Shown here one piece after another: positions 47,852 to 64,000 of a stretch of DNA of 64,000 bases. The translations under genes and the position numbers were made by a program. This DNA comes from Phytoactinopolyspora mesophila. GTDB lineage: Bacteria; Actinomycetota; Actinomycetes; Jiangellales; Jiangellaceae. The notes beneath the pieces are model-generated. The model saw nothing but the letters and a program-made list of their open reading frames with translations. It was not told where the DNA came from and did not search any database. The first letter of the stretch is position 1; each line of letters opens with the position of its first letter. The stretch is taken from assembly GCF_010122465.1 (NCBI RefSeq), contig NZ_WLZY01000002.1, positions 261,076 through 325,075 of the forward strand, given 5' to 3'.

Positions 47852-49267
47852 TCACCCGCCGGAGACGTTCTCGGCGCCGACGATTCCCTCGAGGTTGGAG
47901 TGGAACTCCTGCGCGGCCGAGTCAACATCGGAACGACCGGCGATCACGTTCTCCACCATCCGCTGGATCGCCTCGGAGACCTGGGGGTATTCCTCGAAGC
48001 CCGGTCGGTACCAGGTGAGCGGCAGCACTTCCTCGGCGACGAAGGTCTGCATGGGGTCGTCGGCGATGCCGATCTCGTTGACGTCCTCTCGTGCGGTGAT
48101 GCGAGGTTCACGTTCGACCCAGTCGAGCTGAGCCTCGTAGGTGGCCATGAAGGACAGCAGCTCCCAGGCCTCGAGCGGGTGCTCGGTGTTCGGGTTGATG
48201 ATCCGGCCCGTGCCGCCGGACGCCGAGACGAAGTCCTGGCCGTTGATACCGGCGCCGGGCTGCTTGGCAGGAATCAACGCCCAGCCGACGAGGTCTTCCC
48301 GGTTCTCGATCGGGAATCCGCCGTCGGGGTTGATGACACCTCGCCAGAGGTAGTCGCTTTCGATCATGATGGCGAGGTTGCCGTCCGCGAACGCCTCGAA
48401 CGACCGGTCGCGGCCGTCGGTGACCAGCTGCATATCGGAGTCGGCCAAGCCCTCGTCGAACACGGTGGAGTAGAACTCCAGTGTCTCCCGTAGTTCAGGG
48501 GTGTCGCCCTGCCAGCCGTCGTCGGCGTAGAGATCGCCGCCGGCACCGAGCAGGATCGGGATGAAGCCCTGCAAGGTGGTGGCTTCCTCCATGTTCACCC
48601 CGGCGTTGAGCTGCATCGGAATGACGTCGGGAAGCTCGGACTGGATGGTACGGGCCGCGTCGAGGATCTCGTCCCACGACGTCGGCTGCCAGTCCGTGGG
48701 CAGACCGGCTTCCTCGAACAGGTCGGTGCGGAAGAACAGCACCCGGCCGTCGGTGCCGAGCGGGATGCCGTAGCGTTCGCCGTCGACGTCCAGGGATCCG
48801 CTGACCGCCTCGGGAATCTGCTCCCAGCCCTCCCAGTCGTTGACGACGTCGCCGACGACGGTGTGCAGTGGCTCGATCAGCCCGCCGGCGGCGAATTCAG
48901 CGGTCCAGAACTGGTCGAACGAGGTGATGTCCGGCCCTTCACCGACCGAGAGGTCGAGGGCGAGCTGTGTCTTGTAGTCGTCCACCCCGCCCTCGATGTG
49001 CTCTACGGTGACCTCGCGGCCCTCGTCGGCCATCTTGGCCTCGAACTCGGGGATGACGTAGTCCTCGATCCAGACGGCGACGACGTCCGGGCGTACGGCG
49101 TTGTGAGAGATTGTCAGGTGAACGGGCTCGTCCGAGGGTTCGGGCGCTTCCTGGGCCGCGTTGTTGTCGTCGGACGTGTCGTTGTCGTCGCCGCCGCAAG
49201 CAGCGAGCACAAGCACGGAAGCGAACAGCGCAGCGGCAAATCTGCTACCTCTGAGGTAGGTCTTCAA
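47852..49267 (-). CDS. Extracellular sugar-binding lipoprotein, operon 1
   Basis: This encodes 471 residues, probably starting at TTG 49267 with GGAGGAAGA directly upstream. The signal peptide ends in a lipobox (VLVLAACGGDD). The mature protein is a type 2 solute-binding protein: ISHNAVRPDVVAVWIEDYVIPEFE, ITSFDQFWTAEFAAGGLIEPL, YGIPLGTDGRVLFFRTDLFEEAGLPTDW. It is acidic near the N-terminus (DDNDTSDDNN), consistent with a linker. It captures oligosaccharide for the CUT1 importer. It is related along its length to the lipoprotein at 53540-54979. Confidence 0.95.
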   Translation of the reverse strand: MKTYLRGSRFAAALFASVLVLAACGGDDNDTSDDNNAAQEAPEPSDEPVHLTISHNAVRPDVVAVWIEDYVIPEFEAKMADEGREVTVEHIEGGVDDYKTQLALDLSVGEGPDITSFDQFWTAEFAAGGLIEPLHTVVGDVVNDWEGWEQIPEAVSGSLDVDGERYGIPLGTDGRVLFFRTDLFEEAGLPTDWQPTSWDEILDAARTIQSELPDVIPMQLNAGVNMEEATTLQGFIPILLGAGGDLYADDGWQGDTPELRETLEFYSTVFDEGLADSDMQLVTDGRDRSFEAFADGNLAIMIESDYLWRGVINPDGGFPIENREDLVGWALIPAKQPGAGINGQDFVSASGGTGRIINPNTEHPLEAWELLSFMATYEAQLDWVEREPRITAREDVNEIGIADDPMQTFVAEEVLPLTWYRPGFEEYPQVSEAIQRMVENVIAGRSDVDSAAQEFHSNLEGIVGAENVSGG

Positions 49268-49323
49268 TTCTTCCTCCAGCCAGCACAGTGGGCCAACTGA
49301 TGTCGGCCTACACCGATCATGAG

Positions 49324-49389
49324 GCTGTCAGCATGTCATGACCTTTTAACTTGGTCTAGACCTCCGCGTAACATTGGCCCAACTGTGAT
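49324..49389 (-). promoter_or_regulatory. Conserved 66-bp promoter/operator block of ABC operon 1
   Basis: The block aligns without gaps (roughly 80% identity by eye) with 55121-55186, upstream of the paralogous operon. It contains GGTCTAGACC at 49353-49362, a perfect palindrome of the type bound by GntR/UTRA (DasR-like) repressors. TTAAAA is a plausible -10 box on the reverse strand. Confidence 0.75.
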
Positions 49390-49451
49390 CGAACAAGACT
49401 CGCTCAGGCCGGCCGCGTGCTGCCAGGAAGCTTGATATACCGGCTGCCAAC

Positions 49452-49498
49452 AAGGAAGCTCATTGTCGCTGGGGCAACCACAAGCTTCCTCATTGCGG
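49452..49498. repeat. AAGGAAGCT palindromic element, copy left of the nuclease-like gene
   Basis: These 47 bases are 42/47 identical to 50574-50620 in the same orientation. The arms 49453-49469 and 49474-49490 pair with four mismatches around a TGGG loop. An extra AGGAAGCT half-arm starts at 49425, 28 bp before the second. The pair of elements brackets the gene at 49534-50448. Confidence 0.93.
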
Positions 49499-49533
49499 TG
49501 CGGTGACATGCTGGCAGCGCGCTGGGTCCGGCC

Positions 49534-50448
49534 TTACGCCGCGTGGCGGAGCTGGTGGTTGATGGCTGACCGTATCTCGCTGAGCACCGCACCGGGTTCT
49601 TCGCGGATCCGGCGCGGCGATACCGGCAGGACCCGCCAGCCGAGGCTGGCGAGGCGGGCACGACGCCGCTCGGTCGCCTCCGGGGCGTCGCCGAACCGAT
49701 GCCACTCGATCGACTCGACCTCGAGAACCAGTCGGATGCTCTCATAGTGGGCGTCGGGCACGAGGTCCGGCGCGTCGGGCAAGGGCTCGTTCCACCGCGG
49801 CTCGTCCAGGTCGCGGCTACCGCGGACGAGGTCACGGAGCTCACATTCGGGCGCGGACCGGCAACCAGCTCGGACGTCGGCGAGCGCTTGCCGGGCGAAT
49901 GCCAGCCCACGAGGATCCATCCGGACGTATTCGGCTCCCAGCCGATCGACTGTTGTCAGGCCGCACTGCACGACCTCACACAGCGCTGCCCTGGCGTCCC
50001 GGAGGCCGTCCACCTCATGGGTTGCGTCGATCGCGGCTCGCTCGGGCGGCGCGCACGGGATACCGCGGATCACGCGGGCCACGGGCATCGAGCGAACCCG
50101 GCGAATGGTGGCGACGGGGATCGCGGCTCGACGCACATACGGCGGCACGAGCAGCACGGCTCCTGGCGTGGCGGGCACATACCGCATGCCATATCCACGG
50201 CACGCGGCCGATCCGGTCAGCACAGCCTCCTCACCGGCGTAGAGCAGCGCGCCTCGCACCCGATGCCGCTCCTGCAACGGCCCGGTGAACGTCACATACA
50301 CACCCGGCAAGAAGCGTTGCCACGGTCCGCGAGGACCCAAGGCATGCCGGATAGCGGCCGGGCTCAGCCCGGCTTGCAACGCTTGCCGCCTCGTGATCAG
50401 CCCGTCCTGCGCGGAAGCCAGCGCGCGCAACGCCGGTGACATCTGCAT
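49534..50448 (-). CDS. AbiEi-like HTH plus DUF559-type nuclease protein
   Basis: This encodes 304 residues from ATG 50448, with GAGGAT six bases upstream. Residues ~5-60 resemble the N-terminal HTH of AbiEi antitoxin-like proteins (AQDGLITRRQALQAGLSPAAIRHALG, then RFLPGVYVTF). The C-terminal ~60 residues match the DUF559/Vsr-like endonuclease pattern: LVLEVESIEWHRFGD near residue 243, then RRRARLASLGWRVLPVSP. No toxin gene is adjacent. It interrupts two paralogous ABC operons and is bracketed by near-identical palindromic repeats. A homologue occupies 62986-64000. Confidence 0.8.
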   Translation of the reverse strand: MQMSPALRALASAQDGLITRRQALQAGLSPAAIRHALGPRGPWQRFLPGVYVTFTGPLQERHRVRGALLYAGEEAVLTGSAACRGYGMRYVPATPGAVLLVPPYVRRAAIPVATIRRVRSMPVARVIRGIPCAPPERAAIDATHEVDGLRDARAALCEVVQCGLTTVDRLGAEYVRMDPRGLAFARQALADVRAGCRSAPECELRDLVRGSRDLDEPRWNEPLPDAPDLVPDAHYESIRLVLEVESIEWHRFGDAPEATERRRARLASLGWRVLPVSPRRIREEPGAVLSEIRSAINHQLRHAA

Positions 50449-50573
50449 GCGCCGATCCTCGCAACGCATCCCCCGAGATGGAACGCCGATGACGGATCTG
50501 TGGATAACCACGGCCGGCGAGTCTGTAGTTCAACCACCACAAGGAAGCGTGACGGCGCCAGTAGGCGCAATAA

Positions 50574-50620
50574 GGAAGCTTATGGTTGCTGGGGCAGCCA
50601 TAAGCTTCCTCATTGCGGCC
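50574..50620. repeat. AAGGAAGCT palindromic element, copy right of the nuclease-like gene
   Basis: The arms 50575-50591 and 50596-50612 pair over 17 bases with one G-T-type mismatch around a TGGG loop. A spare left half-arm starts at 50544, 31 bp upstream. Orientation is the same as at 49452-49498. Confidence 0.94.
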
Positions 50621-50657
50621 CGCGACGTGCGTTGCGGTGCCGGGTATAGCGCAGCAT

Positions 50658-51734
50658 TCAGCCGTGAATCAGCGCGCCCTCGGAGGCGTCGAAGAGCAGC
50701 GTGCGGTCGCGGCGGGGCACTACCCAGCCGCGTGTACCGGAGGGCGGCTCCTCGTCTTCGTCGACCACCACTTGGATCCGGGCTTCGTCGGTCTCCACCG
50801 TGATCAGTGCGGCGGCTCCGAGGTTCTCCACGATGGTGGCGGTTCCTTCGATGGCGTCATCAACCGGTGTGGGGGACCACTGCAGGTACTCCGGGCGTGC
50901 GCCCCAGGTGACCTGGTCACCGTCGTCGACCTGTCCTTCCGCGGACGATGGCAGTGGCAGCGTCGAGCCCGCCACCTTGACTCGGTCGCCGGAGACGGTG
51001 GCCGAATGCAGATTCATCGGCGTGGAGCCAACGAAACCGGCGACGAACGTATTCGCCGGCCGGGCGAAGACTTCGCGCGGACTGCCGATCTGCTGGATCC
51101 GGCCGTCCTTCATGATGGCCATCCGGTCGGCCAAGGCGAGCGCCTCGGCTTGGTCATGGGTGACGAACACGGTGGTGACGCCAAGTTCGCGCTGCAGCCC
51201 TTTGAGAAATGTCCGGGCCTCCAGGCGAAGCCGGGCGTCGAGGTTGGAGAGCGGCTCGTCGAACAGGAACACCTGGGGGTTGCTCGCGACCGCACGAGCC
51301 AACGCGACCCTCTGCTGCTGCCCGCCGGACAGCTGGCCGGGGCGCCGACCGGCGAGGCCGTGTAGCGCCAGGCCTTCGGCGGTTTCCTCAGCGGTCGCCA
51401 GCCGGCTCTTGCGCGGCACCTTCTGGAGTCTGAGCGGATAGGCGATGTTGTCCGCGACGGTCATGTGCGGGAAGAGCGCGTAGTCCTGGAAGACCATGGC
51501 GATCTGACGTTGCCCGGGCTCCATATCGGTGACATCTCGCTCGCCGATGAACAACCGCCCCTCGGTGGCGGCCTCCAGGCCGGCGATGGTGCGAAGCAGC
51601 GTCGTCTTCCCGCATCCGGAGGGACCCAGCAACGCGAAGAACTCGCCGTCTTCGATGGTGAGATCGAGACCGTCGACGGCGCGGACGCCGCCCGGGAACT
51701 CCTTGACCAACTGCTGGGTGGTGATCGCTGCCAT
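50658..51734 (-). CDS. MsmX/UgpC-type sugar ABC ATPase, operon 2
   Basis: This encodes 358 residues from ATG 51734 (TGATG overlap with the permease stop, GGAGG upstream). A 566-residue frame exists, but its extra N-terminus is permease shadow. Walker A is LLGPSGCGKTTLL, the signature is LSGGQQQRVALARAVA, Walker B is VFLFDEPLSNLDARL and the switch region is VFVTHDQAEALAL. The regulatory C-terminal domain has WGARPEYLQWSP. It energises the second CUT1 importer. Confidence 0.95.
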   Translation of the reverse strand: MAAITTQQLVKEFPGGVRAVDGLDLTIEDGEFFALLGPSGCGKTTLLRTIAGLEAATEGRLFIGERDVTDMEPGQRQIAMVFQDYALFPHMTVADNIAYPLRLQKVPRKSRLATAEETAEGLALHGLAGRRPGQLSGGQQQRVALARAVASNPQVFLFDEPLSNLDARLRLEARTFLKGLQRELGVTTVFVTHDQAEALALADRMAIMKDGRIQQIGSPREVFARPANTFVAGFVGSTPMNLHSATVSGDRVKVAGSTLPLPSSAEGQVDDGDQVTWGARPEYLQWSPTPVDDAIEGTATIVENLGAAALITVETDEARIQVVVDEDEEPPSGTRGWVVPRRDRTLLFDASEGALIHG

Positions 51735-62871: not shown

Positions 62872-62960
62872 GGTGATCGTCAGTGGGTTGTGGTCGTAGA
62901 GCCGCAGCCACAACGCACTGACGATCACCTCAGCGCGACCACAACGCACTGACGATCACC
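62872..62960. repeat. GGTGATCGT repeat element, copy 3 (duplicated right arm)
   Basis: One left arm (62872-62896) is followed by two right arms (62908-62929 and 62936-62960), stepped exactly 31 bp apart. The stem has one mismatch over 25 bases with the outer arm. The element lies between the giant gene and the second nuclease-like gene, 26 bases from the latter's stop. Confidence 0.95.
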
Positions 62961-62985
62961 AGGGTGGGGTGGGGGGATACGGGCA

Positions 62986-64000
62986 TCAGGCGGCGACCGG
63001 CGCAGCCAGGTACGCCGCTTCGATCTCCGCAAGCACCTCGTGCGGGCAGGCCCGAAGCCGCTGCGGCGAGACTGGAATGACGATCCACCCCTGTGAAGCC
63101 AAGTAGGCACGTCGCTGTTCGGTTCGCTCGTATGCATCGCCACGGCGGTGCCACTCGGCCGAGTCGATCTCGACGATCAGCCGTCGCACCGGCCAGCATG
63201 CGTCGGGTCGCAGCCGCCTAAGTCCAGGGATCAGCTCGTTGAATACCGCCGGTGGTAGGACGTCGGACAGGGCCAGTAAGTCGCGCAACTCGCACTCGGG
63301 CGCCGACCGGCAGCCGGCGACGACGTCGTCGATTGCTCTTCGCGCCAGCGCAGAGCCGTGTCGCGGGCCTTCCTCGAGTTCCCGGACGAGATCCTCTGTG
63401 CTGGCCAATCCGGGTTGAGCAGCTTCGCAGATCAGCGCACGTACAGCGCGGAGTGCGTGGTCGTAGTGGACGCGAGCTCCGGAAGCGGATAGAACCGGTC
63501 GGCCGTTGCTCAAATGAGGCACGGTTCGGGTGACCTCGAGGCCAACGTCTCGTGCGGAATCTAGCGCGGCCCTCGCTAGCGGAGCCAGCGGCACCGTCAT
63601 GTTCGTGGCGACGGCCGGTGAGGCGGGCCCGGGTACCCAGAGCACCGGTTCGGGCAGCCGACGAGTGCACGTGACTCGCACGAAAGCGTGGCTGCTCGGT
63701 CTTGCGGTCGCCGGTACGGCGAGCCGCACATATGGGTCGGTGGGCACGTAGTGCAGACCGTGGCGTGTGCACGCGGCCGCCCCTGTGATGACGGAGGACG
63801 GACCTCCGTAGAGGACAGCGGCGTAGAGGCGGTCGTCGTCGGTGAGTTCGCGGTTGGACGTGGCGTAGACGGCAGGAAGGACGACCTGCCATCGCCGTTG
63901 TTTGATGGCATTCCGGATGGTTGCCCGGCTCAGGCCGGCGGCGCGCGCCTGGGCATGGGTGAGGAGGGCGTACTGGCCGGAAAGCAGTTCTGTCTTCGAG
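62986..64000 (-). CDS. Second AbiEi-like/DUF559-type nuclease protein, 5' truncated by the window edge
   Basis: I read the reverse frame open from the edge (near 64000) to the stop at 62986, ~338 codons. A shorter start at 63747 would drop the N-terminal domain. The N-terminus shows the same AbiEi-like HTH as 49534-50448 (LLTHAQARAAGLSRATIRNAI, then LPAVYAT). The middle shares AGCRSAPECELRDL with it, and the C-terminus has the nuclease-like LIVEIDSAEWHRRGD and RRAYLASQGWIVIPVSP. A palindromic element adjoins its 3' end. The true start lies outside the window. Confidence 0.8.
   Translation of the reverse strand, partial: SKTELLSGQYALLTHAQARAAGLSRATIRNAIKQRRWQVVLPAVYATSNRELTDDDRLYAAVLYGGPSSVITGAAACTRHGLHYVPTDPYVRLAVPATARPSSHAFVRVTCTRRLPEPVLWVPGPASPAVATNMTVPLAPLARAALDSARDVGLEVTRTVPHLSNGRPVLSASGARVHYDHALRAVRALICEAAQPGLASTEDLVRELEEGPRHGSALARRAIDDVVAGCRSAPECELRDLLALSDVLPPAVFNELIPGLRRLRPDACWPVRRLIVEIDSAEWHRRGDAYERTEQRRAYLASQGWIVIPVSPQRLRACPHEVLAEIEAAYLAAPVAA

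Follow-up and report, generated by a model that had tools for sequence, protein, structure and literature searches.

Why should a nuclease gene stand between two near-identical palindromes, and what does the gene have to do with them? We came to this question through a 64,000-nt stretch of the genome of Phytoactinopolyspora mesophila (hereafter, the window), in which such a gene and its two palindromes sit between two paralogous ABC operons. Many genomes carry dispersed REP-like palindromes, whose mode of spread is described as poorly understood (PMC8266576). We propose, with a probability of roughly 0.6, that the feature is a copy of a compact selfish unit arranged as palindrome-nuclease-palindrome, whose nuclease acts on the cognate palindromes. 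On this proposal, many actinobacterial palindrome families would gain a candidate enzyme of quite different chemistry, and a nuclease family annotated merely as AbiEi or DUF559 would gain a possible function. Naturally occurring empty, filled and inverted alleles make the question of palindrome spread testable, and matched nuclease-palindrome pairs of differing sequence are a natural resource for studies of DNA recognition by such enzymes.

A nuclease gene bracketed by matching palindromes

The palindromes bracketing the nuclease gene are 51 bp long, identical at 45/51 positions (88%) and in direct orientation (Table 1). Both form an arm-TGGG-arm hairpin, with 24-nt arms that are 92% complementary in the right palindrome and 22-nt arms that are 73% complementary in the left. 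The right palindrome precedes the nuclease start by approximately 120 bp and follows the stop of an ABC ATPase gene by approximately 40 bp. A reading made from the sequence of the window alone (the sequence-only reading) had described near-identical 47-bp elements in the same orientation, each with such a hairpin and an extra half-arm upstream, and a unit that splits two paralogous ABC operons. These details agree with our analysis: five bases differ over the 47-bp frame, the hairpin is seen on both sides, the half-arms were found at the positions listed in Table 1, and the lipoproteins of the two operons are 55% identical. The observation of a nuclease gene bracketed by palindromes is confirmed. 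The gene product has 304 aa; the ATG at 50448 was preferred over a longer GTG ORF because the homologue alignments fit it.

Table 1. Positions in the window of the nuclease unit, its parts and the second cassette.
Feature	Position	Strand	Remarks
Whole unit	49396..50659	.	1264 bp absent at the P. limicola empty site, both palindromes included
Additional half-arm, outside the left palindrome	49425..49441	+	
Left palindrome	49448..49498	.	36 bp beyond the stop codon of the nuclease gene; hairpin score 13.3
Nuclease gene, AbiEi-like N-terminal part and Vsr/EDxHD-like endonuclease domain	49534..50448	-	
Additional half-arm, inside the right palindrome	50542..50558	+	
Right palindrome	50568..50618	.	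Hairpin score 20.5
Palindrome downstream of the second, paralogous cassette	62872..62929	.	Different palindrome family
Second AbiEi-Vsr-like nuclease gene, truncated at the end of the window	62986..64000	-	Coordinates derived from contig coordinates

The upstream palindrome of the second cassette (locus L177) lies just beyond the window end. The palindrome of this cassette (62872-64000) reads GGTGATCGTCAGTG..., and its family has at least 8 listed sites in the genome.

Predicted domains of the nuclease

The window protein has an AbiEi-like part (residues ~1-195) followed by a Vsr/EDxHD-like domain (residues ~196-301). PADLOC matched it to AbiEi (1.6e-15), Pfam placed AbiEi_4 slightly below the cut-off and gave a weak match to DUF559, and NCBIfam had no match to the window protein. 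Its structure was modelled from an alignment (pLDDT 94.5), the single-sequence model (pLDDT 39.5) being unusable. In the predicted fold, residues 2-193 resemble the AbiEi antitoxin 6y8q (Z 11.1, 184 aligned, rmsd 5.0), residues 198-301 the homing endonuclease I-Bth0305I (3r3p; Z 13.3, 97 aligned, rmsd 2.5) and residues 196-300 the Vsr endonuclease 1cw0 (Z 10.9, 100 aligned, rmsd 2.2). PADLOC, Pfam and the predicted fold are all in keeping with the initial description of an AbiEi/DUF559-type, Vsr-like nuclease and not a Y1 transposase. Residues 58-196 also resemble the nucleotidyltransferase folds of MenT1 (Z 10.0) and ANT(2'')-Ia (Z 6.9).

Four residues of the nuclease domain are probably catalytic: D232 and E243 are invariant in a 40-sequence alignment, and E201 and H250 are conserved at 90% or more. 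No variation occurs in a GCRSAPEC stretch or at the PD positions across the window protein and 20 closer relatives, and dN/dS values of 0.15-0.27 in nine pairs of nuclease genes indicate purifying selection.

The predicted fold of the catalytic domain and the conserved acidic and His positions liken the protein to EDxHD/Vsr-type homing endonucleases such as I-Bth0305I (PDB 3r3p). Unlike these enzymes, it is encoded by a free-standing gene, has an AbiEi-like N-terminal part and is bracketed by palindromes, and its empty sites lack a matching palindrome. The fold of the ~195 N-terminal residues is shared with AbiEi of the AbiE type IV toxin-antitoxin system (6y8q), but here this part is fused to a nuclease and palindromes flank both sides. 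The neighbouring ORFs appear to be ABC transporter genes, and no AbiEii toxin gene was seen adjoining; the unit is therefore not an AbiE toxin-antitoxin pair. The protein could instead be a DNA-binding regulator or a defence or restriction-type nuclease, with the palindromes as its operators or protection sites and the scattered copies as its regulon. AbiEi antitoxins are DNA-binding autorepressors, and the AbiEi-like predicted fold thus favours this interpretation; against it, no AbiEii-type partner was seen among the adjoining genes.

A further relative is the Vsr-fold domain of the MTES_1575-type Vsr REases, which is matched by 11/40 members of the nuclease family. As described, however, that domain is part of giant HEPN/helicase proteins (PMC3710099), whereas the unit described here is a small, single-gene palindrome unit.

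Flanking hairpins across the nuclease family

We compared 80 homologue loci with 140 control ORFs from the same loci. Besides that of the window, these were 79 of the 80 loci retrieved (L191 gave no match locally and was left out), and they came from 21 genomes of the family plus one from a different family. Strong hairpins were present upstream of the gene in 51/80 homologue loci versus 4/140 controls, and downstream in 51/80 versus 9/140. They stood on both sides in 38/80 homologue loci and in none of the 140 controls (Fisher 1.5e-20, a value overstated because the homologue loci are related), and on at least one side in 64/80 versus 13/140. These counts retain a misplaced gene start at three loci (L130, L175 and L178) and a misplaced stop at one (L192), which lower the focal numbers. 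The check proposed in the sequence-only reading, whether homologues carry flanking palindromes more often than control genes, thus came out in its favour both for two-sided hairpins and for hairpins on at least one side. Because the homologues exceed the controls in this way, we conclude that the REPtron-like layout is real and general, solo copies throughout the genome included.

The remaining 42 of the 80 loci are without strong hairpins on both sides. They include the nearest orthologues of the window gene: arrays of motifs flank L112 and L115 on either side, and L113 and L114 have little. L179, L180, L181 and L186 form a diverged clade that lacks hairpins; by eye, GGTCGTG-type motifs are repeated near some of its genes, and at L180 a sequence is common to both flanks (score 30.5).

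Where hairpins stand on both sides (n = 38), they match: similarity averaged 0.77 within a locus versus 0.22 between loci, and a hairpin's own partner ranked first in 28/38 loci and among the top three in 35/38. By our own count, 24 of these pairs are direct, 9 inverted and 5 tied. The two palindromes of L141 differ from each other (similarity 0.38), which might reflect the exchange of one end. In a test that does not depend on hairpins, and for which the gene starts of four loci were moved by hand, sequence sharing between the upstream and downstream flanks exceeded all 800 shuffles in 57/80 loci. The homologue loci are not independent, many of them belonging to eleven syntenic groups, which gives weight to the repetition of the pattern in other actinobacterial families. 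Among 26 further loci (one from Jiangella, the rest from Micromonospora, Pseudonocardia, Actinomycetospora, Nakamurella, Frankiales and others), hairpins were found on both sides in 13 and on at least one side in 21.

The palindromes might also be bidirectional terminators or mRNA-end hairpins that insulate the nuclease gene, with solo copies serving other genes. Such a role would not need matching sequence at both ends of a gene, nor is it reflected in the controls, which never had hairpins on both sides (0/140). Furthermore, a search for intrinsic terminators (stem plus T run) gave 0 sites in 49250-50800, including the window elements. No known RNA family reached the gathering threshold in 49200-50800. 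With no T run and no two-sided control gene, the bracketing elements are not just a terminator pair. The innocent alternative named in the sequence-only reading, a gene insulated by bidirectional terminators, is insufficient alone, and we regard terminators or mRNA-end hairpins as a quite improbable account of these palindromes.

Solo palindromes and close pairs

In the 6.5-Mb Phytoactinopolyspora genome, a strict two-arm pattern of the window family was found 6 times and its reversed counterpart 0 times, which exceeds chance. By our own count, looser patterns yield 11 sites, some of them partial, with 3 hits for the reversed control. Two of the 11 sites bracket the nuclease gene and nine adjoin unrelated genes. 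The possibility that the same elements occur equally around unrelated genes, which had been named as speaking against the proposal, is therefore realised in part, by nine single sites, but not by close bracketing pairs: the window nuclease gene is the only gene bracketed by a close pair of window-family palindromes. By eye, two solo palindromes of this family (L027 and L035) lie beside apparent Phd/VapC toxin-antitoxin genes.

BLAST searches with eight palindromes as one query returned 55-102 matches per genome in all five genomes searched; these numbers include hits on either strand and the copies within the cassettes themselves, and at E values up to 10 some weak matches may be chance. Among the sites listed, those of Micromonospora lupini included, 8/9 same-family pairs less than 5 kb apart enclose a nuclease gene. 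The P. mesophila genome contributes three of three such pairs among the matches listed, one in each of three of its four palindrome families and none for the fourth. All three close pairs of G010 enclose a nuclease (among 40 listed sites), as does the single pair of G017 (among the matches listed). Micromonospora lupini has 22 palindrome sites (control, 0) and one close pair, 159564/160587, which encloses a nuclease match at 159679-160506 (contig identity inferred from positions). The one close pair among the matches listed for G014 (G014:C1:3985926/3986455) does not enclose a nuclease: no homologue protein matched within its 529 bp, which rules out the generalisation that close same-family pairs always do so. 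The pair surrounds a stretch with repeated GATCAGGTG motifs.

Two further cassettes of the P. mesophila genome, L131 (G000:C6:329k) and L130 (G000:C5:277k), each have a near-identical palindrome pair, and the family around L130 has at least 13 listed sites in that genome. In G017, a broken nuclease gene (L375; G017:C3:549600-553100), matched in separate pieces, lies by a single listed palindrome and is perhaps a decaying unit.

The solo sites are often placed near gene ends. By our own count, and with crude gene calls, 20 of the 29 sites inspected are no more than 60 bp from a predicted stop codon, and several lie between convergent genes, as terminators would. Compensatory changes that keep the stem symmetrical also suit a terminator or mRNA-end hairpin: in one family of twelve copies, three stem positions have changed on both sides (8:4, 10:2 and 9:3) with no broken cell there, and 278/288 cells are paired, 9 of the 10 unpaired ones falling in one pair adjoining the loop. 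The flanks of solo copies are only 67-88% identical to those of congeners, which blurs the junctions. At the L239 solo site, the match is continuous across the site in both P. limicola (G003) and G004, and the aligned P. limicola sequence has no palindrome.

The architecture recalls REPtrons, which are described as a RAYT/TnpA-REP gene bordered by REP palindromes that are also scattered (PMC3733652; PMC8266576). As in those descriptions, palindromes border the gene and also lie dispersed at intergenic positions, palindrome sequence varies together with the gene, and palindromes can stand without the gene. The differences are the enzyme, an AbiEi-Vsr-like nuclease and not a Y1/HUH transposase, and the occurrence of the unit in both orientations in place. 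The Y1 transposase family PF01797 was not found in the P. mesophila genome and was found in 5/14 control genomes, on which ground we reject RAYT-driven spread of the palindromes in the former. A GTAG tag at the palindrome foot was not consistent either, being near 2/58 element ends. Because of these two results, we conclude that the unit is no REPtron but follows the same building plan with an unrelated enzyme.

The Jiangella genome G014 (L360/L372, L374) has more than ten listed solo palindromes of the family of a Jiangella site described below (site IV) and lacks the site IV cassette, and no nuclease matching this family was seen in the homologue search of G014. Together with the close pair that lacks a nuclease, these solo copies are what would be expected if other machinery (host recombination or an unseen transposase) spread the palindromes while the nuclease travelled between them or shared their hot spots. 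We give this explanation only a small chance, given that no Y1 transposase was found in the P. mesophila genome, that gene and palindrome match by clade, and that nearly all of the close same-family pairs listed enclose the nuclease.

Palindrome sequence and protein clade

Nuclease lineages tend to differ in the palindrome family that they carry. In the protein tree, close relatives often share a palindrome even across sites, as L168 does with L158, L165 and L171. The outer arms vary between clades and the centre often reads GC-YNNR-GC (by eye). Palindrome similarity correlated with protein identity (r 0.47; 0/999 permutations) and more closely with the identity of residues 61-190 (r 0.55; 0/999 permutations). 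The match of gene and palindrome is clade-related but not strict: 57 different-site pairs with protein identity of at least 70% had a mean palindrome similarity of 0.37, some as low as 0.14, and 52 same-site pairs a mean of 0.57. That the palindrome best tracks the middle of the protein is also what a regulator reading its operators, or a defence nuclease reading its protection sites, would produce.

The short motif of the window's clade differs by species. It reads AAGCTTCC in 4/4 flank copies of the window and AAGCCTCC in 5/5 flank copies of P. limicola, where AAGCCTCC also accounts for 10/13 motif matches of four fetched solo regions (L132-L135). L115 has both forms, AAGCTTCC and AAGCCTCC; L113 and L114 exemplify the pattern poorly. 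Beyond the flanks, the short motif was not found in 4/5 loci of this clade, and two matches at L114 that were counted as outside derive from its upstream flank.

Empty sites and units in both orientations

Both ABC operons are also present in P. limicola, with a left lipoprotein 94% identical to that of the window, and ~31 bp there take the place of the 1264 bp of the window. The alignment pairs window positions 49395/50660 with L235 positions 2143/2175, with flanks 90% and 81% identical; the P. limicola orthologue of the window nuclease (75% identical) is on a different contig. Hence, the comparison of empty and occupied sites between the ABC operons, suggested in the sequence-only reading, bears out a unit that is missing with both palindromes and does not bear out simple homing into an existing palindrome. 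A further site, downstream of an ndk-like gene (site IV), was compared in 12 Jiangella species. Seven are occupied, one of them with an interrupted frame; two are cleanly empty, with 39 and 48 bp and no palindrome, and three hold other short sequence. By eye, the ends of the unit at this site coincide with the outer palindrome ends or fall no more than ~20 bp from them. The comparison of filled and empty site IV alleles, whose flanks are strongly diverged, revealed no obvious target-site duplication. Since the empty sites hold no palindrome, homing into a pre-existing one is not supported.

The unit occurs in both orientations in 7 of the 11 syntenic groups, which were assigned by hand and count only loci with both flanks matched. 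Among cross-orientation pairs, 62/69 have both flanks collinear and the cassette aligned inverted. Site III has the best cases, in which cassettes ~75-80% identical are inverted between flanks that are mostly 83-91% identical, with breakpoints in the palindromes. Members of group IX, which have no hairpins, are inverted too, so inversion is no proof of palindrome action. Host recombination between matching 50-bp palindromes could alone invert the unit, and re-insertion at the same site could also give the opposite orientation.

Paired matching palindromes, dispersed single copies, presence or absence of the whole unit and both orientations in place are shown by these comparisons. Terminators do not account for palindromes that vanish together with the gene at empty sites. 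A regulator or defence nuclease leaves unexplained this same whole-unit absence with both palindromes, the copy just after the stop codon, the units inverted in place and the solo copies abutting unrelated stop codons, and we consider it unlikely. We favour the selfish unit, in which the nuclease may maintain, move or cut at the palindromes, as the sequence-only reading had supposed. The AbiEi-like part, of which residues ~60-190 best track palindrome identity, would recognise the cognate palindrome, and the Vsr/homing-endonuclease-like domain would nick or cut at or beside it. Repair of the break against other copies of the same palindrome could then flip the unit in place, copy it or delete it, and the same repair could spread solo palindromes and homogenise their sequences. 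The unit would thus be REPtron-like in logic and homing-endonuclease-like in chemistry. More broadly, we give even odds to a large, undescribed class of actinobacterial selfish elements in which an AbiEi-guided, Vsr/homing-type nuclease flips, moves and multiplies its own palindromes, an independent and transposase-free version of the REP/RAYT principle. In a literature search of incomplete coverage, no title or abstract connected bracketing palindromes with AbiEi/DUF559/Vsr-like genes.

Different nuclease clades reuse the same intergenic sites, a pattern that shared hot spots and other machinery would also produce. One reused site in Jiangella species lies directly upstream of a typA-like gene, where the cassette is found in either orientation (L117, L121-L124 and L126).
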